DNA of 64,000 bases. Origin: Allorhodopirellula heiligendammensis. GTDB lineage: Bacteria; Planctomycetota; Planctomycetia; Pirellulales; Pirellulaceae. The position numbers and the translations under genes were made by a program. How positions within the stretch are numbered: position 1 is the stretch's first letter; every line of letters begins with the position of its first letter. This document shows positions 6,168-23,603 of the stretch, one piece after another. The stretch spans positions 1,663,739 to 1,727,738 of the forward strand of contig NZ_SJPU01000002.1 of the NCBI RefSeq assembly GCF_007860105.1. The letters are read 5' to 3'. The notes under the pieces were generated by a model. It was not told the DNA's origin. It searched no databases and was given only the letters and a program-made list of their open reading frames with translations.

Positions 6168-7097
6168 TTGTCTCTCGACGTTTCCAGCCCCGGGATTCTG
6201 TTCCCCGGCCAAGGAGCACAAGCACCCGGCATGGGTGCTTGGCTGTGTGAAAATTATCCGCTTGCCAACGAGCTGTTCGCGCGAGCGGGTGATGTCCTCG
6301 GCTACGATCTCAAACAGCTCTGTAGCGATGGTCCGGCGGAGAAACTCAATGAGACCGTCCATAGCCAGCCGGCACTATTTGTTGCCGGCATCGCGGCTGC
6401 GGAAGTGTTTTCTGAGTTGCACCCAGATACCGCGAGCAGAATTAAAGCGACTGCGGGGCTCAGCCTTGGCGAATACACCGCTGTCTGCTTTGCTGGTGGG
6501 TTGAGTTTTGAGGACGGCCTGCGATTGGTCCAACAGCGTGGCGAGGCAATGCAGGCCTGCGCCGACGCCGCCGAGTCTGGCATGTCCAGTGTGCTCGGGC
6601 TGAGTCTGGATAATCTCAGTGAGGTTTGTGAGGAGTGCCGGCAAGACGGCGAAGTCCTGCAGCCGGCAAACTTGCTGTGCCCTGGCAATATCGCTGTTTC
6701 CGGTCATCTCGCAGCACTCGGTCGCCTGGAGCCCTTGGCCCTGGCAGCGGGCGCCATGAAAGTGGTCCCGCTCAGTGTGGCGGGCGCTTTCCACACGCCC
6801 CTGATGCAAGACGCGGTCGCCAAACTCACGGCTGCCTTGGCTGATGTTGAGATCCGCTCCACCCGCATTCCTGTCTACAGCAACGTCGACGCGGCACCGC
6901 ACAGCGATCCTGCGGAGATTCGCGAATTGCTGGCCAAGCAGGTCGTTAATCCAGTGTTGTGGGAGGCATCGATTTCTCGCATGCTCGGCGACGGTATCGA
7001 CGGTTTTCTCGAAGTGGGCACCGGACGTGTCCTGCGTGGCACGATTAAACGCATCGCCCGCAAAACGCCGACCGATGGTTTTGGCGATCAGCCCTGA
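6168..7097 (+). CDS. fabD: Malonyl-CoA:ACP transacylase
   Basis: 309 residues. It transfers malonyl from CoA to ACP for fatty acid elongation in the cytoplasm. FPGQGAQ lies at about 13-19. The nucleophile motif GLSLGEYTA is at about 98-106, with Leu where His is common before the Ser. AFHTPLM near 205 carries the catalytic His. No ATG precedes FPGQGAQ in this frame; the TTG at 6168, one base past the rpmF stop, is the only start that keeps the N-terminus, so translation is probably coupled to rpmF. plsX and fabH, which often lie between rpmF and fabD, are missing. Confidence 0.95.
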   Translation: MSLDVSSPGILFPGQGAQAPGMGAWLCENYPLANELFARAGDVLGYDLKQLCSDGPAEKLNETVHSQPALFVAGIAAAEVFSELHPDTASRIKATAGLSLGEYTAVCFAGGLSFEDGLRLVQQRGEAMQACADAAESGMSSVLGLSLDNLSEVCEECRQDGEVLQPANLLCPGNIAVSGHLAALGRLEPLALAAGAMKVVPLSVAGAFHTPLMQDAVAKLTAALADVEIRSTRIPVYSNVDAAPHSDPAEIRELLAKQVVNPVLWEASISRMLGDGIDGFLEVGTGRVLRGTIKRIARKTPTDGFGDQP

Positions 7098-8227: not shown

Positions 8228-8473
8228 GTGGCGTCTATTGAAGAACGCGTTATCGACATTGTGTCCGAACAGCTCGGTGTTGACAAAGATAAAATCACAC
8301 GCGAAACATCGTTCGTCAACGATCTTGGTGCCGATTCACTCGACACTGTCGAATTGGTGATGGAGCTCGAAGAGGAGTTCGACATTAGCATCCCCGACGA
8401 TTCCGCTGAGAAGATCCAAAAGGTCGGCGAAGCGGTCGATTTCATCGAGAAGGAAAAGGGCGAAGACGCCTGA
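8228..8473 (+). CDS. acpP: Acyl carrier protein
   Basis: 81 residues, acidic and helical. The phosphopantetheine attachment motif [18 protein letters not shown] has its Ser near residue 37. This is the carrier of growing acyl chains. The start is GTG at 8228, chosen because GGAG at 8216-8219 sits 8 nt upstream and the next residues (ASIEERV) match ACP N-termini. It lies between fabG and fabF in the standard order. Confidence 0.97.
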
Positions 8474-8512
8474 GGCGTTCACCGTTCACAGTCCTTTTAT
8501 TTTTTACCAATC

Positions 8513-8553
8513 ATCAACCACCCGTGGCGTTCTGGTCACTTTGGGTGGTTGAT
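8513..8553 (+). other. 11-bp stem-loop between acpP and fabF
   Basis: ATCAACCACCC (8513-8523) pairs perfectly with GGGTGGTTGAT (8543-8553) around a 19-nt loop. No T-run follows on either strand, so it is not a standard intrinsic terminator. It may stabilise the acpP transcript 3' end or reduce read-through into fabF. Confidence 0.5.
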
Positions 8554-8586
8554 TGACATATTAGCGATCGACACTGCGGCTCTCAC

Positions 8587-9867
8587 ATGACGGTTTCAAC
8601 GGAACCTTTTCGATTTGTTCCCAATAATGGAAGTCCACGCCGCGTCGTGATTACCGGAGTGGGCGTGGTCACTTCGCTGGCCCAGGACGTGGATTCCTTC
8701 TGGCAGCGGCTGACCGCTGGCGAGAGTGGAATCCACGCACTCTCGATCATGGACACGAGCCGTTACAAGGTCCATTTTGGCGGCGATATTCCTGATTTTG
8801 ACGCGACCGAGCATGTCGCCGCGAAGGAAGTAAAACGCCTCGATCGTTTCACTCAGTTTGCCGTCCACGCGGGTGCACAAGCCGTTGCTGATAGCGGTGT
8901 TGACTTCTCCGCATTGGATCCGACGCGCTGTGGAGTCATTCTGGGCTCCGGCATCGGTGGTCTCAATGAGATTGAGGACCAGATCGAGCGGATGCTCAGC
9001 AAGGGGCCTGATCGGGTGAGTCCGTTCACGGTACCAAAGATGATGCTCAATGCCGCCGGCGGCAACATCTCGATCCGGTACGGTCTGAAGGGCCCGAACT
9101 ACGCGGTTGCCACTGCCTGTGCGAGTGCAACGAACGCGATGGGTGATGCTGTCCGCAGTATCCGCAGCGGCGAAACGGATCTCATGATCACCGGAGGCTG
9201 TGAGGCCGCGATCACCCGGATGGGCTTAGCCGCGTTTCAGAACATGAAGGCCCTCTCGACTCGCAATGACGAGCCAGAGCGAGCGAGCCGCCCGTTTGAT
9301 GCCGATCGCGATGGTTTCGTGCTCGCCGAAGGCGCGGGGCTGTTGATCTTCGAAGAATACGAACAAGCCAAAGCACGCGGAGCAAAGATCTATGCGGAGG
9401 TGCTCGGCTATGGAACGACGAGCGACGCCGGTCACATTACCGCGCCTGATCCTGAAGGCTCCGGTGCCGCCGAGGCCATGCGACTCGCTATTCTCGATTC
9501 TGGGCGGAGCGTGGATCAAATCGATTACATCAATGCACACGGCACCAGCACGCCGTTAGGTGATAAGGCGGAAACCCGCGCCATCAAGTCCGTTCTGGGC
9601 GAGCACGCGAGCAAGGTCGCAATCAGCAGCACGAAGGGCGCTCTGGGTCACTCGCTCGGCGCCAGCGGCGGAATCGAAGCGGTGATTTTATGCAAGACGA
9701 TCGAAACGAATAAGATTGCTCCTACGATCAATCTCGAAACGCCTGACCCGGCCTGCGATCTTGACTATGTGCCGCTGCAGGCCCGCGACCGACAGGTCGA
9801 TGTCGCGATGAGCAATAGCTTCGGCTTCGGCGGCCATAACGCATGCATTGTTGTGGGGCGGGTGTAG
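8587..9867 (+). CDS. fabF: 3-oxoacyl-[ACP] synthase II
   Basis: 426 residues. This is the condensing enzyme that elongates acyl-ACP with malonyl-ACP. The catalytic triad is visible as Cys in ATACASATNAMGDA (about 176), His in INAHGTSTPLGD (about 317) and His in KGALGHSLGASG (about 354). The C-terminus NSFGFGGHNACIVV is typical. It closes the rpmF-fabD-fabG-acpP-fabF cluster. The N-terminal ten residues before the VVITG core are slightly longer than usual. Confidence 0.96.
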   Translation: MTVSTEPFRFVPNNGSPRRVVITGVGVVTSLAQDVDSFWQRLTAGESGIHALSIMDTSRYKVHFGGDIPDFDATEHVAAKEVKRLDRFTQFAVHAGAQAVADSGVDFSALDPTRCGVILGSGIGGLNEIEDQIERMLSKGPDRVSPFTVPKMMLNAAGGNISIRYGLKGPNYAVATACASATNAMGDAVRSIRSGETDLMITGGCEAAITRMGLAAFQNMKALSTRNDEPERASRPFDADRDGFVLAEGAGLLIFEEYEQAKARGAKIYAEVLGYGTTSDAGHITAPDPEGSGAAEAMRLAILDSGRSVDQIDYINAHGTSTPLGDKAETRAIKSVLGEHASKVAISSTKGALGHSLGASGGIEAVILCKTIETNKIAPTINLETPDPACDLDYVPLQARDRQVDVAMSNSFGFGGHNACIVVGRV

Positions 9868-9966
9868 CCGTTTAGGCATCACCGGACCTGATCAACTGTG
9901 GCCCGCACCGGCATGGACGTGCGCGGTGCCCCATTCTCGTGGTGACGAAGTCACGGCACGCCATAT

Positions 9967-10020
9967 CCCCGGATTCAAGTCCGGGGACCCGGTTCATAAC
10001 AACGATCGCTTCGCGATCGT
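9967..10020. terminator. Two hairpins between convergent fabF and argH
   Basis: CCCCGGA/TCCGGGG (9967-9986) and ACGATCGC/GCGATCGT (10002-10020) are perfect short stems in the 256-bp gap between two genes that converge. No T-tract follows, so they could act as a two-way transcript end that needs Rho, or only protect 3' ends. Confidence 0.35.
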
Positions 10021-10123
10021 CAAATGCCTGAGCCGTCTCGCTCTCGGACGGACGTTCGGGCTGATCGCATGTCATTTCGTTGCGGTCACGGAGCGGTACC
10101 GCTGCAACATACGCCGCTAGAGC

Positions 10124-11500
10124 CTACCCCAACCGATGTTTCCACGCGGCGATCTGCTCACGGACTCGGTGCGGCGCAGTCGAGCCTTCGCTGCAGAATG
10201 CCGCGACAGCGTTTTCAGTCCCAAGCACCTCGTAGACGCTCTCGTCGATCTCGCTGCTGAGTTCTTTGAGGGTCTCGATCGGTAGTTCGGCCAACGCTAC
10301 GCCACGCTTCATCGCTTCGCCAACGATTGCGCCGACGAGGTGGTGGGCCGTCCGTTGAGGCATGCCTTTGCGAATCATCCATTCCATCAATGTCGTCGCG
10401 TCGAGATACCCCTTCTCAATCCGAGCGGCGATGGATTTTCGTTTCAACGTCGCACCCGCCACGATGGGAACGGCTAATTCCAGCATTGCACGGGTGGTGT
10501 CGAATGAGTCGAATAGTGGCGGTTTGTCCTCTTGCAAGTCACGGTTGTAGGCCAGCGGTAGATTCTTCACCAACAGCATCAGCGTTTGCAAGCTGCCCAT
10601 CACACGAGCTGACTTGCCGCGGGTCAGTTCGAGCGTATCGGGGTTCACCTTTTGTGGCATGATGCTGCTGCCGGTGCAGAACTCTTGGCCGATCGCAATG
10701 AAATCGAACTCGACGGTGCTCCATAAGATCCATTCCTCCGCCCACCCGCTCAGGTGCGAGGCAATCATCGACAGGACGAACGACGACTCCAGGACGAAGT
10801 CCCGGTCGCTACTGGTGTCGAGGCTGTTGGCGGTGATGCCTTCGAATTCCAACGCTTCGGCGGTTTGTTGGCGGTCAATCGGCAGCGTGGTGCCGGCAAC
10901 CGCAGCGATGCCGAGCGGGCACTGGTTAACCCGGCGGCGGCAATCGGCCAAACGAGCCCGATCTCGCTCGAATTTTTCCATATAGGCCAGCCAGTAGTGC
11001 GGCGCGAGCACGGGCTGGGCACGCTGCAGGTGGGTATATGCGGGCAGGATGACATCGAAGTCATCATCGCAGCGGCTCAGGAAGGCTCGCTGCAGGTCCA
11101 GCAGCAAGGCATCGACCGCATCGAGCGATTCGCGAATCCACATTCGGACATCGGTGCTAACCTGATCGTTGCGACTGCGGGCGGTGTGGAGTTTGCGACC
11201 GACGTCGCCGGTGGCGTCGATTAACGCCTGCTCGACGTGCATGTGGATGTCTTCGAGTTCGAAACGCAGCGGAAGTTCGTTGCGATCGAGCCGGCCACGA
11301 ATGTTTTCTAGTTCGTCGCGAATCTGGGTGAATTCGGTATCGCTGATCAATCCCACCGTGCGGAGCATCTCCGCATGTGCGATCGAGCCGCGAATGTCCT
11401 GCCGGTACAGTCGCGAATCAAAAGTAATGCTTTCGGCGTAAGCTTCGAGTCGTTGATCGGTTTGCGCGGCGAAAACACCGCTGCGGGAAGGGCTAGCCAC
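10124..11500 (-). CDS. argH: Argininosuccinate lyase
   Basis: 458 residues, the normal length for this fumarase/aspartase superfamily enzyme, which splits argininosuccinate into arginine and fumarate. Motifs: DIHMHVEQAL (about 84-93), TARSRNDQVSTD (about 107-118), YTHLQRAQPV (catalytic His about 159) and the superfamily signature GSSIMPQKVNPD (about 277-288). The region FEGITANSLDTSSDRDF is also typical. It stands alone on the minus strand between fabF and a large secreted protein, with no other arg gene nearby. Confidence 0.96.
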   Translation of the reverse strand: MASPSRSGVFAAQTDQRLEAYAESITFDSRLYRQDIRGSIAHAEMLRTVGLISDTEFTQIRDELENIRGRLDRNELPLRFELEDIHMHVEQALIDATGDVGRKLHTARSRNDQVSTDVRMWIRESLDAVDALLLDLQRAFLSRCDDDFDVILPAYTHLQRAQPVLAPHYWLAYMEKFERDRARLADCRRRVNQCPLGIAAVAGTTLPIDRQQTAEALEFEGITANSLDTSSDRDFVLESSFVLSMIASHLSGWAEEWILWSTVEFDFIAIGQEFCTGSSIMPQKVNPDTLELTRGKSARVMGSLQTLMLLVKNLPLAYNRDLQEDKPPLFDSFDTTRAMLELAVPIVAGATLKRKSIAARIEKGYLDATTLMEWMIRKGMPQRTAHHLVGAIVGEAMKRGVALAELPIETLKELSSEIDESVYEVLGTENAVAAFCSEGSTAPHRVREQIAAWKHRLG

Positions 11501-11667
11501 GGTTGACTTTCAAGCGGATGTGGGCGAAATAGGGAGAGTGTGAGCCGTACGCGGCCGTCCCCGAACTTTCAGGCATTCTTAGTAGGATGCCCCAAACGCT
11601 GCTGGCTGAAAACCGGTCACCGCAGTGGAAATTTCTGATTTCCTTCACTCCACCTACTCAAATCCCG

Positions 11668-14505
11668 ATGTCGAACCGTTTTTGGATGACTGTTGCAGCC
11701 TGGCTCTGCTGGTTTGGTTTGTCGCAAAATCAAGCGGCTTCCCAGCCTCCTGTGCCCGGCTCGCCGATGCCTGAGCAGGGATTGGTCGTGGTGGCCTCCG
11801 GGGTTCCGTATGGCGTCGCCACAATCGAAATTCCGCTGCGGAACCCTGTGTTCGGTGACGGGCCGCCGCCATTGCGACTGAGCGGACCGCCAGCCCGAGT
11901 TTTTTTTGCTGTCAGCGAGAATGTGCAGGTGCGTGGCGTGGAACTGCCCTCCGAACGCCCGATGCCGCGCGTCGGGCAGGGGCGTTTGCTCGGCCGGGTC
12001 AGCAACTTGATCCGTGAAGTCGCCGGCGGCGATGCGGTTCAAAACGAGACGGTTGCACAGCGGATTTCGTTCCTGTTTGCGGGCGAGCAGCCCTTTACGG
12101 TCAAGGTCGACGATCGGGAGGGAGCAGCGGGCTCGTTTGAGATTCGCCCTGCCGCGAATCCCCGCGGGCGACAGCAACTCTTGACGGACTGGTGGTCCAG
12201 CTTCACTGATGAGAGCAAGCGACAGGTCGATCGCCTCGACACCCCACCGTGGGTGCAAACATATGTAGTGGGTATGCTCTCGGGGCGTCTAGGCTTGCCC
12301 TTGCCCGCCTGGTATGGCAATACCAGTGGTGAGACTCAGCAGGACTCGCTCCTGATGACACTGGAGTGGATCAGTGGTGCCGCCAGCGTCTCCAATCGTG
12401 TCTTCGCGTCCGCGGCAGCCGGCCGTGACCTCGACTCACCCAATTTGCCCGTCACGACAGAGGTCGCCGCCGAACCGTTGCCAGCACCGATCCAGTGGCA
12501 AGCGACCTCCCCGCCGAGTGATCTCGCTCCCAATCCAGTTGATCCTGAGATTGAAGCGATTGCCGACCAGGTACCGCCGGAGTGTTTTTACATCCGCTAC
12601 GGCAAATTCGAGAACTATCTTTGGTATCAAGATCTCACTGATGAATATGGCGGTGATATTTCGCGGATGATCACATTGAGTGGGTTGGCCAATGATGGCG
12701 CCGCTCGTCTGACGCGTCAGCTCGGTCTGCAAACAACCATCATGGGGCGGATGCTCGGTCCCACCATCATTGCCGATCAAGCCATCATTGGCCGCGATCT
12801 GTTTTTGCAAGACGGTGCTGCGATGGGGGTGCTGTTTCAGCCCACGAACGCCTATCTGTTGCGATCGAGCATCAACAGCGATCGAAAAAAATTAGCCAGC
12901 GGGGCCGATGCGATCACGCTCCAAGACGTGCATCTGAAAAACGGGCGTGGCTCATTGCTGCGTTCGAGCGACAACAGTGTTCGCTCCTACATGGTCGAAA
13001 GTAAGGGATTTATCTGTGTCACCAACAGTCTCGCGATCGCCGAACGCTTTCTTGAAGTCGGACAGACCGGCGAGTCACTTGGCAAGACCGAGGCATTCCG
13101 CATCGCTCGTACACTGCATCCGCTCAGCATCGACGATACGATTTTCGCGTACTTTTCGCCCGACATGCTGCAGGGACTGCTGACGCCTCAGTACCTGATC
13201 GAGCTGCGGCGCCGGATGCAGTCCGAAGCGGATATCGCGTTGGTGCACCTGGCTCGGCTGGCGGCGGCAGATCAAACACCACCGGGCCTGCAGCCCATCC
13301 GGGAAATCGACCCGCTTGTCGACGCCGGATTTCTTCCCGTTGGATTCGGCGAGCGACCCGATGGGAGTGGCGTGTTCGCTCTCGGAGATCGCGTGCTTGA
13401 CTCCGCCCGGGGTGCCCGTGGCACGTTCCTGCCCATACCGGACAACCCTATCGAGACGGTCACGTCGACCGAGGCGGCATGGTACAACGAGATCGCTGCC
13501 GCGTATTCGCAGCAGTTCCGCAGCCTCGATCCGATCTTCTTGGGGGTGAAACGCGAATGGGTTGCTGGCTCCCAAGCTGCTGACGGGGCGACGGAAAATG
13601 TTAAGCTGCCACGCCGGGAACGGTTGAACTTGCATCTGGAGGTCGCCCCCTGGCAGCCAGAGAATTACGGGACTTGGGCCCAGCAACTTGGGCCTCCCAC
13701 CCCCGTATCAATTCGGTTCGCACCCGATGACATTGTCGCTGTTCAGGCGCATGTCGTTAGCGATGTGCTGGGGCCGCCGACGCACATGTTCGCAGGGATC
13801 AAGGACTCCAATCCACCTCAACCGGAGGCGTTCAATGGCATCCTCGGCAGCTACCAGGCGCTGCAGAGCTTGCCTGGCTATCTCGGTGCATGGCCCCTGC
13901 CCGGCATGCTCGATCGACTCCCGCTCGGCATCGGCCGGGGGCAACCGGTTGGACCCAACATGACTCGCTTGCTCGGCGGGGTTTACCGCTATACAGGAGG
14001 CGAGTTCAGTATTCTGTCGTTCGATCCCGCTCTGTTGACGAGCACGGTGTCGCAACTTGCCGCCATGGAAGTCAGTGATTCTGCCCAAGTGCGGGCACAT
14101 ATTGGTGATATCCACGACAGCCAAATCGCTGGCTGGGTCAATGAATTCCTATATCGTCGGGCGGCGACGAGCAGTGCCGCCGAAGCCGATTTCCTGAGTT
14201 CACTTAGCGGGCAGCTGGGCGTTGCACCGGAACAAGCCCTCGAGCAAGCACGTTTGATTCTCGGTGGTGAGGTGCAATGCGTGTTGGGGGGAGACTTCCA
14301 AGCTGACTCGGCCGATTCCGCCGCGCCGCAATGGCGCAGCACTGCATGGGGTGTGGGTAACGACGACCCGCCGGCGTATCCGCCGGCGACCTATGAAGCG
14401 CCGATTTTAAATTGGTTTCGTGGTGCCGATGGAACGTTGACGCAGTACCCCAACCGGGTCGTCGCCGACTTGGTGATTGAGGTAGAACGGGGCCGAACAA
14501 AATAG
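11668..14505 (+). CDS. Large secreted protein of unknown function, planctomycete type
   Basis: About 945 residues from the ATG at 11668. An ATG at 11587 is in frame, but the later one gives a clean signal peptide (FWMTVAAWLCWFGLS, cleavage near QAAS). The mature protein has no catalytic motif I recognise. Residues about 310-500 (PECFYIRYGKFENYLWYQDL onward) look like proteins that load numeric columns of conserved beta-strands, and Pro-rich spacers occur at about 280-305. The C-terminal third ends LVIEVERGRTK. Probably periplasmic or surface-located. Transcribed alone, converging with tadA. Confidence 0.75.
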   Translation: MSNRFWMTVAAWLCWFGLSQNQAASQPPVPGSPMPEQGLVVVASGVPYGVATIEIPLRNPVFGDGPPPLRLSGPPARVFFAVSENVQVRGVELPSERPMPRVGQGRLLGRVSNLIREVAGGDAVQNETVAQRISFLFAGEQPFTVKVDDREGAAGSFEIRPAANPRGRQQLLTDWWSSFTDESKRQVDRLDTPPWVQTYVVGMLSGRLGLPLPAWYGNTSGETQQDSLLMTLEWISGAASVSNRVFASAAAGRDLDSPNLPVTTEVAAEPLPAPIQWQATSPPSDLAPNPVDPEIEAIADQVPPECFYIRYGKFENYLWYQDLTDEYGGDISRMITLSGLANDGAARLTRQLGLQTTIMGRMLGPTIIADQAIIGRDLFLQDGAAMGVLFQPTNAYLLRSSINSDRKKLASGADAITLQDVHLKNGRGSLLRSSDNSVRSYMVESKGFICVTNSLAIAERFLEVGQTGESLGKTEAFRIARTLHPLSIDDTIFAYFSPDMLQGLLTPQYLIELRRRMQSEADIALVHLARLAAADQTPPGLQPIREIDPLVDAGFLPVGFGERPDGSGVFALGDRVLDSARGARGTFLPIPDNPIETVTSTEAAWYNEIAAAYSQQFRSLDPIFLGVKREWVAGSQAADGATENVKLPRRERLNLHLEVAPWQPENYGTWAQQLGPPTPVSIRFAPDDIVAVQAHVVSDVLGPPTHMFAGIKDSNPPQPEAFNGILGSYQALQSLPGYLGAWPLPGMLDRLPLGIGRGQPVGPNMTRLLGGVYRYTGGEFSILSFDPALLTSTVSQLAAMEVSDSAQVRAHIGDIHDSQIAGWVNEFLYRRAATSSAAEADFLSSLSGQLGVAPEQALEQARLILGGEVQCVLGGDFQADSADSAAPQWRSTAWGVGNDDPPAYPPATYEAPILNWFRGADGTLTQYPNRVVADLVIEVERGRTK

Positions 14506-18871: not shown

Positions 18872-20560
18872 TCAGCGCTGCAGTGTCTGTAGGATCGCGT
18901 AGATACGTAAACCGGCGTCTTGGTGTGCAAAGTGCGCGACCACGTTTCCCATTTCCGCGACGCCGCGTGCTTGAGTGGTCAATCCGATGCGAGCGACTAG
19001 CATGGGGACGGCTTCGCCTACCGAACCGGCGTAGCGAAACAATCGACCGCGCCACCACTTGGCGTAGGCTTGCATTGTCCATTTCTGCTGCTGTTGGAGC
19101 ATCTTCGGACGCAAGTATCTGGGGTACAGCCAACGACGGAAGCTTAGGTAAAGAGCGATGAACAACACAGCGCACTCGAGTAGAACCAGCCATAGACTGA
19201 GTTGACCGGCGCTGTCGGTCGCCATAACAGTGACAACCAATATGGGCATCAGGCCGATCGTCATGCCACTGACCATCCAAGCCACCAAGGGCCAAAACTG
19301 ATATCGAGATTCCGCGCGGCCGAAGGGGGCATATACCTTTTGAGCTGGCACCGCCAAGTCGCTGACCAGCCGCTGGGTCTGAACGGTGAGTCGCTCTTGA
19401 GGGATCTCGCCGGGCTCATCGAGAGCGAGTTGCAACTGTTCAACGAGTGCGTAAATCAGCATCACCCACGCGTTGTCGTCGAGTGCCGTGGTCATCGGAA
19501 AGGCCTGTTGCAGGCTCGTCGAGTCCCGCGCGATTTCATGGAGCGTTTTTAACATCGCGGCGGTTGATGATGCGTCCTCCCTGCGGCAGGACAATCGCAG
19601 CACGCCTAATAGTTTTCGCCGCACGGGATGGTTCGACGAATGGTTCGCTTCGAGTTGCAAGACCTCTTGAATGCGTGAAATAAAATCGAGCTCCGCTTCT
19701 GCATTAAGATTCAACGCCGCCGTTTCCATCTCAATTTCTCCCAACACACGATTGCTCCACGCCGGTGGTGCCGTCCAAACCGCTGAACGCAGAATCCGTA
19801 AATGGAAAGTGGTGTTAACGGAGGGCTCGGTTTGCCGCACGCTGCGCTCGCATTCGGCGAGCAGTGAGGCGAATGTGGCGAATGGCACCTGTTCGATCAA
19901 GCGCAGCCATAGCGATTCGGTGAGCAGGTAAAACAACGGTGAACGCAGTTTTTCGGCGATATATCGTACGATCTTTTCCAGCATCGCGTCGGATACTTCC
20001 GTGCGCAGATACTCAGTCGTCAGATTCAACAGTCCAGGATCGGCGGGATAAGCTGTCAGTCCCTCGATGAGGTGCGCCAGATATTTCGTGCTCGGTCGCC
20101 CCGCAGTGACGTCTGACAAAATCGCGGCTAGAAAGTAGTCGGGAGGAGTTCGTCTCGGTTGGGTCTGCAACTGCCGCAGCGCCGCACCTGGATCGACGAC
20201 TGCGAGTTGCCGCAGCGACAACGGAGTCGATTGGGGCAGTTGGCGTGATTGTTCGCTTGGTGGCGCAGAATCATGCGTGCCCGTCGCCTGCGCTGCGTCA
20301 ATGTCCGCCGAGGGAACTCCGGTGCTGTCCTTCCAAGCGTCTGCTGCGCTGACGAGTTGCTGCTGTTGTTTGCCATAGCGCAGCATCTTCTCTAGTCGCT
20401 CGTACGCCTCCCGTACCCGGCCAAACTCAGCCGCATGCGTTTCAGGCTTGTAGATCCGGATCGCTTTGCCATAGGCACGCTTCAAGTCCCGGCGGTCGAA
20501 TCCTTCCGGTAGTCCAAAGAACGATACGGGATCGCTCGTCAACAGCGACAAGTCGTTCAT
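18872..20560 (-). CDS. Membrane-anchored J-domain-like protein with degenerate HPD
   Basis: 562 residues. Residues about 10-60 have the J-domain helix pattern: DPVSFFGLPEGFDRRDLKRA, then a helix II, a short loop and helix III (EFGRVREAYERLEKML). The loop that normally holds His-Pro-Asp reads KPE (IYKPETH), so the triad that stimulates Hsp70 ATPase is lost or altered. A long helical middle follows, then two membrane helices at about 430-490 and a basic C-terminus. Its start overlaps the stop of the preceding gene (ATGA). It is third in an operon behind an HscC-type Hsp70, which argues that it is the dedicated co-chaperone, but this is inference. Confidence 0.78.
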   Translation of the reverse strand: MNDLSLLTSDPVSFFGLPEGFDRRDLKRAYGKAIRIYKPETHAAEFGRVREAYERLEKMLRYGKQQQQLVSAADAWKDSTGVPSADIDAAQATGTHDSAPPSEQSRQLPQSTPLSLRQLAVVDPGAALRQLQTQPRRTPPDYFLAAILSDVTAGRPSTKYLAHLIEGLTAYPADPGLLNLTTEYLRTEVSDAMLEKIVRYIAEKLRSPLFYLLTESLWLRLIEQVPFATFASLLAECERSVRQTEPSVNTTFHLRILRSAVWTAPPAWSNRVLGEIEMETAALNLNAEAELDFISRIQEVLQLEANHSSNHPVRRKLLGVLRLSCRREDASSTAAMLKTLHEIARDSTSLQQAFPMTTALDDNAWVMLIYALVEQLQLALDEPGEIPQERLTVQTQRLVSDLAVPAQKVYAPFGRAESRYQFWPLVAWMVSGMTIGLMPILVVTVMATDSAGQLSLWLVLLECAVLFIALYLSFRRWLYPRYLRPKMLQQQQKWTMQAYAKWWRGRLFRYAGSVGEAVPMLVARIGLTTQARGVAEMGNVVAHFAHQDAGLRIYAILQTLQR

Positions 20561-21831
20561 GGATACCCGCCGGATCTCGGCATGGGGGATCTCGGCATTG
20601 GGAGGCTCGGCATCTGGGATCTCGGGAACGGGTGGCTCGGCATTTGAGGAAATCGGGTTTGCGGCCGGGAGGGAGTCGGAGGGACGTCACTCGAACGCAT
20701 TCCATCGAGGTCGTCGGGATTGCGAGCACGCCAGTCTTGCAGTATCTGTCGCGTTGCCTCACGCCTCTGTTGGAGAGTTCGATTTCGCTGTGAATCGTTC
20801 TGGAATTCGTGAGCGGGTTGGGGTGGGTTCGATCGGCCCGTGCCTGATTGGGGCGTTTCCCACGGCGATATTGCATCAGCGCTGAAATTGCGTTCCCATC
20901 CCTGAGGGTGTGCTAAGCCGTTGACGTCAGGACCCAAGTCATGGGGCGGATTTCCTCCCAGACTTGGGGTGCGGAAACCACGCGGGTGAGGCGGTATATA
21001 CGATGGCTCGGCTGGCGCATTGTACGAGGGCGAACTGTAAGAAGGCGAACTGTAAGAAGGTGAACTGTACGAGGGCGAACTGGAGGACGAGTCGCGGGAG
21101 ACCATGGACGATAGCCGCGCGACAGAGGATAGAACAATTAACGCAACGAACACCCACTTTCCGCTGCCACCTAGAGTCAACCGTCCGGTGTGGTTGCGCG
21201 AGGGATGACTCGCCGCCCACGCGTTCTGATTGGTGGGATCCAACAGCATGTCAAACCAATTTCGCTCAAGGGCATAGACCTCCGGATGATCGCTCACATA
21301 TTGGTGCACCATTGCGCAGGCAGGCTTGACGCGTCGTTCGTCGCAGATTGCTTCGATGTACTGCTCGCGGAGTGCTGCGCCTTCGGCGGCGGGGCGTACC
21401 ACACTCTGTTGAAGCGAGTAGGCAAATTTAGGGTCACCGGTTTCAGCATTGACCTTCAGTAATGTGTCGCGCAATTCGGTGGCCGCCTGCAATCGCGCGG
21501 CGATGGCGGCATACTCTGGCAACCGATCGCTGTGCAAGGTCCGCAGGTACTGTCGGAGTTTTGCGTCGGGCAATTGGTAGAACTCTTCTTGAACCTTATC
21601 CAGGCATTGTCTCGCCCGATCTCGCAGTCGCTGCTGGGCACTGGGCGCTGCAGTGCCTACTCCTTGTGAGGTGGCGATACTGGGGTCACCACCCCAGATC
21701 TCACGCCGCCTCTGTATGATCTGCTGAGAGTCCCACATTGGGTTGAAATCAAGCATCTCATGTACGTAGGCTTTCGCCACACTCGTCGGGACGTCGCCTC
21801 CAGAGTCACTGTCGCGGTCACGCTGGGTCAC
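20557..21831 (-). CDS. Membrane protein of unknown function in the Hsp70 operon
   Basis: 424 residues from a GTG at 21831 that overlaps the hsp70 stop (GTGA); an in-frame ATG upstream lies inside hsp70 and is less likely. The first 200 residues are a soluble helical domain (for example RARQCLDKVQEEFYQLP). One membrane helix at about 215-232 (WVFVALIVLSSVARL) is followed by a low-complexity tail: four tandem YSSPS units (15-bp DNA repeats near 21025-21085) and Pro/Met/Arg repeats at the end. No known domain. Position between an Hsp70 and a J-like protein, coupled at both ends, suggests a structural or adaptor part of that chaperone system. Confidence 0.75.
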   Translation of the reverse strand: MTQRDRDSDSGGDVPTSVAKAYVHEMLDFNPMWDSQQIIQRRREIWGGDPSIATSQGVGTAAPSAQQRLRDRARQCLDKVQEEFYQLPDAKLRQYLRTLHSDRLPEYAAIAARLQAATELRDTLLKVNAETGDPKFAYSLQQSVVRPAAEGAALREQYIEAICDERRVKPACAMVHQYVSDHPEVYALERNWFDMLLDPTNQNAWAASHPSRNHTGRLTLGGSGKWVFVALIVLSSVARLSSMVSRDSSSSSPSYSSPSYSSPSYSSPSYNAPAEPSYIPPHPRGFRTPSLGGNPPHDLGPDVNGLAHPQGWERNFSADAISPWETPQSGTGRSNPPQPAHEFQNDSQRNRTLQQRREATRQILQDWRARNPDDLDGMRSSDVPPTPSRPQTRFPQMPSHPFPRSQMPSLPMPRSPMPRSGGYP

Positions 21832-23603
21832 TGATCCGCTCCATCGGGATGAATTCCCAGTGAAGACAAGCAAATCATTAGCATCTCACGGGTCGCAGTG
21901 AATTCGGCTCGATCGGCTCGATTCATCGCGGCCTCGTACGTATCCAACGCCGCATCGAGCTGTTCTCGCTGGCTCGGATGCAGTTCCCCGAGCATGCGCT
22001 CGGCGTACCTGGCGAGCTGTTGATTGGCCAGATCGTCGCGAGGATAGAACTTCATTTCACCAATTCGTCGACGGGCCGCATCAATCGACTTTGGCGACAA
22101 CCCTTTGACATGATTTGTCAGGATGGTGCGAAATTTCTGCCCACCCGATGCGTACGCTTCGACTTCGAGCACGCCGCTGACGTCATAGGTGAAGCGGATG
22201 AAGAAGGGGCTGCCCGCGGGGCCTGGAGGCAGCGGGCTGACCTCGAGTTCACCGAGCAACACGTTATCACTGACCTTGCGCGCATCACCCTGATACACCT
22301 TCACTGTTACGGATGTTTGATTCGCCGACATCGTGCTGTAAATCTCCTCTTTGGAGATCGGAATGGTGCAATTGCGATGCAGCACCGGCGAAAAGTACCC
22401 GCTGTGAACTTGTCCGCCAAGCTCTTTGGCAACCTCCACGCCCAGTGTGAACGGGCATACGTCGGTCATGACCATGTCATCGACGGCGGCATCGTCACCG
22501 ATCAAGGCGGCTTGGATCGCGGCTCCAAGCGCTACGACTTCATCGGGATTGTGACGCATCACGGGCGGTTTCCCGAAGTAGTCTTCGACAAATTTTCGTA
22601 GCGCATCCATGCGTGTTGCTCCACCGACCAGGATGACCTCGTCAATCTCATCGGGTTGCATCTCTGCGTCTCGAAGCGCCCGCGCGATCGGCCCAGCGAT
22701 CCGCTGCATCAGGGGGTCGCACAAGCGGGCAAACACTGTTCGATCGATCCGGAATTTTTTAGGGTTTTCCGTAAACCGCCCGTCCTCGCCAGGCACGCGA
22801 ATCGATGCATGTTCTGCGGTCGCGAGCGTCCTTTTGGCGGTTTCACATTCACTCCGCAGACGAGCCACACGCAGTGGATCGTTCAGCTCCGCAATCTCCA
22901 ATCGAGCATTCTCTGCGTTAAGGACTTCGGACACGATGCGGTCAGTGAAATCCTCCCCGCCCAGCAAACTCTCGCCGGCACTGGCGCGGATCTCCAACGT
23001 TCCTTCGAAAACCTCCATCACCGTGACGTCAAACGTACCACCCCCGAGATCGATAACGACGATATTCTTTTCATCATCACGGTCGTGAAACCCGTACACG
23101 AGCGCCGCCGCAGTCGGTTCATTGATCATCCGCCGGACATTCAATCCAGCCATCTCACCGGCCAGTCGGGTCGCTTGGCGAGCGTGATCGTTGAAGTAGG
23201 CGGGGACAGTGATCACCGCATCGGTCACGTTCATGCCCAACGCCGCAGATGCATCTTCCCGCAACGATCGTAGTACCAGACTGCTCAGTTCGTGAGGCGT
23301 GAATTCCTTTGTGCCAAGTCTCAAGCGGCGGTCCTGACCCATATACCGTTTGAAGCACCACGCACACGCATCGGGGTCCGTGACCCGTAACTCTTTGGCC
23401 GTTTGTCCGACGACGATTTCACCACTGCTCAACACACCGATCACTGATGGTGTTAAGACTCCTCCATGGGCTGTCGGCAGCAGCGTTGGCTTGCCGTCGC
23501 GAAAGATGCTCGCCAATGAATGGGTGGTGCCGAGGTCGATGCCGATGCACGGTGCGGCATCGTGGGGAGTGTGTGAGTCGCGAGAGTCGGGATTTTCGGA
23601 CAT
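21828..23603 (-). CDS. hscC: HscC-type Hsp70 chaperone
   Basis: 591 residues, shorter than DnaK (about 640). ATPase motifs: GIDLGTTHSLASI (about 21-33), the VPAYFNDHARQATRLAG phosphate region (about 150), VIDLGGGTFDVTVMEV (about 185-200) and VGGATRMDALRKFV (about 325). Substrate-binding domain is present (about 385-500), with a reduced lid. The Ser after GTTH and the short lid are HscC-like; E. coli HscC works with the neighbouring J proteins DjlB and DjlC. Here the two downstream genes overlap by 4 bp each, so all three are probably made together. A specialised, not general, chaperone. It is transcribed away from the DUF1549 gene. Confidence 0.88.
   Translation of the reverse strand: MSENPDSRDSHTPHDAAPCIGIDLGTTHSLASIFRDGKPTLLPTAHGGVLTPSVIGVLSSGEIVVGQTAKELRVTDPDACAWCFKRYMGQDRRLRLGTKEFTPHELSSLVLRSLREDASAALGMNVTDAVITVPAYFNDHARQATRLAGEMAGLNVRRMINEPTAAALVYGFHDRDDEKNIVVIDLGGGTFDVTVMEVFEGTLEIRASAGESLLGGEDFTDRIVSEVLNAENARLEIAELNDPLRVARLRSECETAKRTLATAEHASIRVPGEDGRFTENPKKFRIDRTVFARLCDPLMQRIAGPIARALRDAEMQPDEIDEVILVGGATRMDALRKFVEDYFGKPPVMRHNPDEVVALGAAIQAALIGDDAAVDDMVMTDVCPFTLGVEVAKELGGQVHSGYFSPVLHRNCTIPISKEEIYSTMSANQTSVTVKVYQGDARKVSDNVLLGELEVSPLPPGPAGSPFFIRFTYDVSGVLEVEAYASGGQKFRTILTNHVKGLSPKSIDAARRRIGEMKFYPRDDLANQQLARYAERMLGELHPSQREQLDAALDTYEAAMNRADRAEFTATREMLMICLSSLGIHPDGADQ

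Follow-up and report, generated by a model that had tools for sequence, protein, structure and literature searches.

A three-gene operon of Allorhodopirellula heiligendammensis appears to encode a variant of the E. coli HscC/DjlC pair. It falls within a broad departure from the HPD motif among the J-domain partners of HscC, which was not found described in the literature searched and may have been noticed earlier. HPD is regarded as the trigger of Hsp70; the operon-linked J/HscC pairs compared here, from six phyla, keep its proline and its acid, not its histidine. Our preferred reading, to which we give a probability of about two in three, is that the operon specifies a dedicated inner-membrane HscC/J pair in which a J domain with KPE docks on and triggers its own HscC, that the HPD rule is relaxed throughout the HscC branch, and that the protein encoded between the two is an accessory. 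This reading builds on what was observed of the genes, J homology, linkage, motif statistics and docking residues. The pairs constitute matched natural sets for probing the role of each HPD residue, and the operons offer a bacterial system for studying J-domain specificity.

Layout of the operon

The window, that is the whole stretch of DNA analysed, comprises 64,000 nt (GCF_007860105.1, contig NZ_SJPU01000002.1, positions 1,663,739 to 1,727,738, forward strand). As read from the sequence, its minus strand encodes between 18872 and 23603 an HscC-type Hsp70, then a membrane protein, then a J-domain protein (Table 1). The initial annotation had described the three genes as an HscC-like Hsp70, a membrane protein of no known family and a 562-residue protein with two membrane helices and KPE at the position of HPD. 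Its coordinates, strand and 4-base overlaps (GTGA, ATGA) were right, as the open reading frames and overlaps demonstrated. The identity of the products was also borne out: that of the Hsp70 by HscC-type deletions, a tree and bit scores, that of the middle protein by one likely membrane helix and by Pfam and fold searches that gave no clear match, and that of the last protein by an AlphaFold2 (AF2) model, profile matches to PDB J domains and hydropathy. Its suggestion that the Hsp70 and the J protein form a dedicated membrane-bound pair gained support from the operon structure, the hydropathy peaks and the co-occurrence of the genes.

Table 1. Features of the operon in window positions (aa, residues of the respective protein)
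Feature	Position	Strand	Evidence
HscC-type Hsp70, 591 aa	21828..23603	-	Pfam HSP70 E 2.2e-134; tree; HscC deletions; blastp
Arg158, equivalent of DnaK R167 (contacts HPD Asp)	23130..23132	-	alignment; contact from PMC8215388 (excerpts)
Gln364, equivalent of DnaK Q378	22512..22514	-	alignment
Asp381, interdomain linker, equivalent of DnaK D393	22461..22463	-	alignment
GTGA overlap, 4 bases, Hsp70 stop / middle-gene start	21828..21831	-	sequence
Middle gene, 424 aa, GTG start	20557..21831	-	helical domain, one likely membrane helix and a long tail rich in Ser and Pro
Helical domain, aa 63-208	21208..21645	-	AF2, pLDDT >85 (block 86-98)
Likely membrane helix, aa 225-244	21100..21159	-	AF2 helix, modest pLDDT; weak hydropathy peak 1.62
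ATGA overlap, 4 bases, middle-gene stop / J-like start	20557..20560	-	sequence
J-domain protein, 562 aa, two membrane helices	18872..20560	-	ORF, hydropathy, AF2 model, profile matches
J domain, aa 11-60	20381..20530	-	AF2 helices; PDB J-domain profile matches
KPE, aa 38-40, at HPD position	20441..20449	-	sequence; alignment; PDB profile matches
Alpha-solenoid, helical-repeat-like, aa 116-403	19352..20215	-	
Two membrane helices, aa 425-443 and 454-472	19145..19288	-	hydropathy; long model helices 406-447, 452-502

The Hsp70 is of the HscC type

In blastp comparisons the Hsp70 scored 410 bits with E. coli HscC, 362 with the DnaK of its own genome and 324 with E. coli DnaK. On an HscC profile, of which the window sequence is itself a part, it reached 1046 bits against 499 and 481. 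All HscCs, including those of the window and of E. coli, were separated from both DnaKs with 100% support in a tree of 124 HscCs (at least 550 bits) and two DnaKs, in which no HscA was included and 37 of the 122 inner branches were weak. Deletion of the region of DnaK 76-101 and a loss near D211 are HscC features according to excerpts of PMC8215388; in the alignment the window Hsp70 shared the former and a deletion around 208-211. The HscC criterion of an insertion in L1,2 of the SBD with a nine-residue deletion in helix B was also compared. Ahead of the GYFSP stretch there was an insertion, and YPRD was followed by a five-column gap, with loop and length as read from the alignment. The region matching the GrpE signature (DnaK 290-295) aligned poorly, and E. 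coli HscC is described, in the same excerpts, as being without this signature (PMC8215388). Plain identity discriminates less, the window Hsp70 being almost equally near its own DnaK (40.0% over 502 aa) and E. coli HscC (41.3% over 559 aa); its identity to E. coli DnaK was 34.6%.

The residues on which a J domain would dock are present. The HPD aspartate has DnaK R167 and Q378 as partners and the HPD proline has P419 (PMC8215388, excerpts), and equivalents of R167, N170, E206, E217, Q378, D393 and P419 are retained in the window HscC as aligned. Across the HscCs scored, 124 of 127 had R or K at the R167 position, 117 of 128 kept Q378, and 128 of 128 kept D393 and P419. Another J-domain contact, DnaK D477, is replaced by T or S in HscCs, a point against the preferred reading.

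The 562-residue protein has a J domain with KPE

The check proposed for this protein was alignment and structure prediction, and a J fold was found by both. An AF2 model computed with 18 sequences contained helices at residues 11-15, 23-36 and 43-74 (block pLDDT 86-91 to residue 60), followed by a solenoid of helices and a pair of long membrane helices; hydropathy maxima fell at residues 425 and 454. The profile of the family matched J domains of the PDB (best E 6e-9) with KPE aligned under HPD. The single sequence stayed below the Pfam DnaJ threshold (13.8 bits, E 0.062; cut-off 27.8), and Pfam DnaJ matched 13 of the 14 rows of alignment A1 (the window and 13 relatives) at E up to 0.1 (best 9.7e-06). 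No J domain was among the results of whole-model fold searches of the 562-residue protein, and Pfam gave no match to the DnaJ C-terminal or zinc domain. Judged by profile matches and predicted structure, this is a genuine J domain. Taken strictly, a protein with KPE and not HPD is type IV, or J-like.

All 14 rows of A1 have KPE. Seventeen further database proteins, the window's own excluded and at least two (P0008 and P0009) apparently duplicates of A1 members, comprised 14 with KPE and one each with NPE (P0017), KPD (P0019) and SPE (P0022). Codons were mixed in the 27 KPE genes (AAG 14, AAA 13; CCG 17, CCC 5, CCT 3, CCA 2; GAA 14, GAG 13), indicating that it is the residues that are conserved and not the DNA, and selection appears to maintain KPE at the level of the protein. 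This bears on the explanation that the J domain is decaying and KPE is neutral drift. The first motif residue is indeed highly variable among HscC-linked J domains, and one relative (G042) has a decaying operon; but the invariance of KPE in A1 with mixed codons, the well-kept proline and acid columns, the persistent linkage of HscC and J genes across phyla and signs, found in part, of purifying selection on the motif make drift highly improbable.

Occurrence and gene order in relatives

Among 60 genomes, own included, 14 had both the J-like gene and HscC, 45 had neither, and one had a transposon-broken HscC. That puts the J-like gene in 15 genomes and HscC scoring at the cut-off in 14, the two sets differing only in G042, where HscC is split by an inserted DDE transposase and the J gene is disrupted by a TAG. 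The system is patchy: neither gene was present in four of the 13 genomes from the genus, and HscC reached the cut-off used in 29 of 392 genomes of a phylum sample. Wherever relatives carry the genes, the non-HPD motif and the order HscC then J, which the initial annotation proposed to follow, are retained: HscC and J were on the same strand with J downstream in 14 of 14 relatives' loci, 11 of which also showed similarity to the window middle protein.

J domains beside HscC rarely have HPD

HscC loci (HscC at least 350 bits; 133 loci) were drawn from the relatives, the phylum sample, E. coli, plasmids and genome contigs. On the profile, planctomycete HscCs scored 591-1088 bits and those of other phyla 357-808, the lowest being partial ORFs; for the lower scorers the HscC label depends on the profile together with a quick tree that contained two DnaKs but not HscA. 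A linked J domain was found in 129 of the 133 loci, giving 139 J domains in six phyla, counts that include two J genes at some loci, a broken copy (L026), partial HscCs down to 350 bits and an identical pair (L061/L080). Three of the four loci with no J match end near HscC (L043, L059, L114); L111 does not. In 126 of the 129 loci HscC and its nearest J gene shared a strand. All 126 had the J gene within 1600 bp, 85 within 100 bp or overlapping, and 121 downstream of HscC.

The motifs of the 139 domains were HPE (41), RPD (33), KPE (27), RPE (13), NPE (9), HPD, PPD, PPE and DPA (2 each) and KPH, RAE, DPQ, DQG, DIE, KPD, SPE and DPG (one each); the five commonest account for 123. A search for the pattern Y-x7-HPD recovered the same two HPD domains, plus four unrelated frames. 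Planctomycetota (48 domains) had KPE 27, RPD 9, RPE 6 and others 6; Bacillota (47) HPE 37, NPE 7, HPD 2 and SPE 1; Pseudomonadota (36) RPD 18, RPE 7, HPE 3, NPE 2 and others 6. The six domains of Verrucomicrobiota had RPD, the one of Myxococcota HPE and the one of Fibrobacterota PPE. As a control, the top Pfam J domain of each genome had HPD in 30 of 30 genomes, a score-based choice biased to the canonical form. Among the full-text matches listed, judged by titles and the beginnings of abstracts, no report of a family-wide departure from HPD beside HscC was seen.

In DnaJ numbering, P34 was kept in 136 of the 139 domains and position 35 was acidic in 133 (E 95, D 38). Position 33, that of the histidine, held R 47, H 43, K 29, N 9, D 6, P 4 and S 1, so it is free. 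The docking positions were kept: Y25 in all 139, K or R at the R22 position in 138, and R (122) or K (4) at the K51 position in 126. A53 was present in 135. The HscC tree requires at least 17 changes of the first motif residue and at least 30 of the tripeptide. Among the results listed, no covariation of HscC positions with the motif that was independent of ancestry was found, in a test that was underpowered. The rarity of HPD in related operons of other phyla suggests that the HscC branch may be switched on under different motif rules. On these comparisons the simplest reading is that a basic or polar residue, proline and an acid would be the HscC version of HPD, with KPE as its planctomycete form.

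Six of the 139 domains have no acid and their HscC still keeps the arginine, so that a Glu-Arg contact is not general. Luteibacter DPA/DPG and Eleftheria DPQ retain the proline alone, Paracoccus DIE an acid alone and Variovorax DQG nothing. In five loci that have mostly lost the motif (DPQ, DQG, DIE and two DPA), the HscCs have R167 in five of five and Q378 in four of five, with M in the DQG locus. A tentative wider proposal is that HscC represents a separate Hsp70/J branch in which the HPD histidine would be generally dispensable (R, H, K and N being accepted) and in which, in some lineages, the trigger may work with almost no HPD left, the docking arginine being kept.

Loss of HPD and the trigger of HscC

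The initial annotation had concluded from the loss of HPD that either the pair has a different trigger or the middle protein does the job. This was weakened by the comparison with E. coli and by the two HPD motifs among 139. In E. coli, DjlB and DjlC both have HPE, and stimulation of HscC is reported for DjlC, whereas DnaJ and CbpA do not stimulate it (PMC8215388, excerpts); a motif other than HPD beside HscC therefore need not mean a lost trigger. The window J family matched the DjlC family with 95.9% probability (E 6.2e-9) in the J region only, hhalign pairing residues 14-64 and nothing outside the J domain. Both systems combine an HscC-type Hsp70 with a membrane-anchored J protein encoded alongside, have related J domains, and share the proline and a Glu in place of Asp. 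The window system differs in having KPE rather than HPE, a two-helix anchor instead of a tail anchor, the J gene downstream in one operon, and an additional middle membrane protein, unrelated to YbeU/YbeR so far as seen. With DnaJ and CbpA the J protein shares the J helices and the docking positions Y25, R22 and K51; unlike them it has no HPD, is membrane anchored, and carries a solenoid in place of the DnaJ substrate domains.

A J fold with HPD replaced is also known from type IV (pseudo) J-domain proteins, among them DNAJB13 (HPL) and Pam16 (DKE/DKS) (PMC13254874, excerpts). The HscC-linked family, that of the window included, differs from them by keeping proline and acid, by having the replacement family-wide and by its own linked Hsp70. 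Pam16 is the precedent for an explanation in which the KPE domain would be a recruiting or inhibiting tether of HscC at the membrane, the trigger coming from the client or from an HPD protein encoded elsewhere. Changes of H to Q or D to N abolish stimulation in the Hsp70 systems tested (PMC8215388, excerpts). According to a 2026 review (PMC13254874), HPE seems to be the sole tolerated replacement of HPD, and it is enigmatic whether other deviations arose by accident or were selected. Both points count against a triggering KPE domain. The genome itself encodes two HPD J proteins above the Pfam cut-off, neither of them within the operon. However, Pam16 has lost the proline that HscC-linked J domains keep, the J protein reported active on HscC is the one with HPE, and only two HPD domains lie beside 129 HscC genes. 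We regard such a tether as unlikely; KPE is most likely a working variant that would trigger its own HscC at the membrane, as judged from sequence comparison.

For this working variant we infer the ATPase stimulation, the membrane topology and the role of each motif residue as follows. The J domain would sit in the cytoplasm on the helical solenoid, which a hairpin of two membrane helices would anchor, and would dock on its own HscC to trigger ATP hydrolysis. The proline of KPE would preserve the shape of the loop, the Glu would take the place of Asp in pairing with the HscC arginine (DnaK R167), and the Lys may replace His as a side-chain donor.

The middle protein

To find the middle gene, 44 planctomycete loci were examined between HscC and J, and one protein search (10 proteins) complemented this. 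An ORF of at least 200 aa was present there in 28 of the 44 loci, two of which (L055, L056) look out-of-frame. This frequency would fit an explanation in which the middle protein is the activator or exchange factor of HscC and the J domain is vestigial, and an exchange factor could be wanted if, like E. coli HscC as described in PMC8215388 (excerpts), the Hsp70 is without the GrpE signature. Outside the planctomycetes, however, 76 of 84 loci have J overlapping HscC or no more than 100 bp away from it, which leaves no room, and the middle protein is for this reason unlikely to be a general trigger. No relation to E. coli YbeU/YbeR was seen (hhalign probability 0.04%), and mean column identity was 23% against 57% for the J domain. 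These findings and the retained HPD-docking residues of the window HscC gave no support to the role of activator suggested initially, and we consider a vestigial J domain beside an activating middle protein quite improbable. Under the preferred reading of a KPE domain that triggers HscC, the middle protein would be a lineage-specific membrane accessory that recruits or holds HscC, or a client adaptor.

No Pfam family was matched at 0.1. The C-terminal tail was disordered in the AF2 model. In an alignment of 16 middle proteins many were about 220 aa long with a C-terminal hydrophobic stretch, and the hydropathy peak of the membrane helix was stronger in several relatives than in the window protein.

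Loss of the HPD tripeptide and decay of an HscC locus

The HPD tripeptide of HscC-linked J domains was mostly gone at L069, L070, L074, L139 and L148, loci from Eleftheria, Variovorax, Paracoccus and Luteibacter, where DPQ, DQG, DIE, DPA or DPG was found instead. HscC retained the docking arginine (R167 in DnaK numbering) beside J domains with these motifs.

In the related genome G042, HscC was interrupted by an insertion carrying a DDE transposase (Pfam, 4.5e-35), and the J-like gene was disrupted by a TAG codon. These two lesions indicate that, as judged from sequence, both partners are decaying together.

At L017, alignment showed altered J-docking residues in the Hsp70, with D at R167, R at E217, Y at Q378 and N at D393. 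This Hsp70 may be one that has ceased to use J domains. The Hsp70 gene overlaps the end of a 730-aa ORF, whose DnaJ match was at chance level (13.7 bits, E 0.47); a Pfam scan of the 730-aa protein gave no DnaJ match.

Locations of the features
Feature	Position	Strand	Remark
Long Ser/Pro-rich tail of middle protein	window 20560-21099	-	
Broken HscC and J-like genes, L026 (G042)	about 6170-7068 and 9582-11270		
Second Hsp70 locus, L017	G000:C1:2196000-2214000, 8267-12141 within locus	+	same genome as window operon

The tail of the middle protein, the membrane protein encoded between HscC and the J-like gene, contains SSPSY-type repeats; many shorter relatives do not have it.

Two J genes adjoin a single HscC at L040, L049, L063, L071, L081, L110, L123 and L148, as they do in E. 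coli, possibly reflecting local cochaperone duplication.
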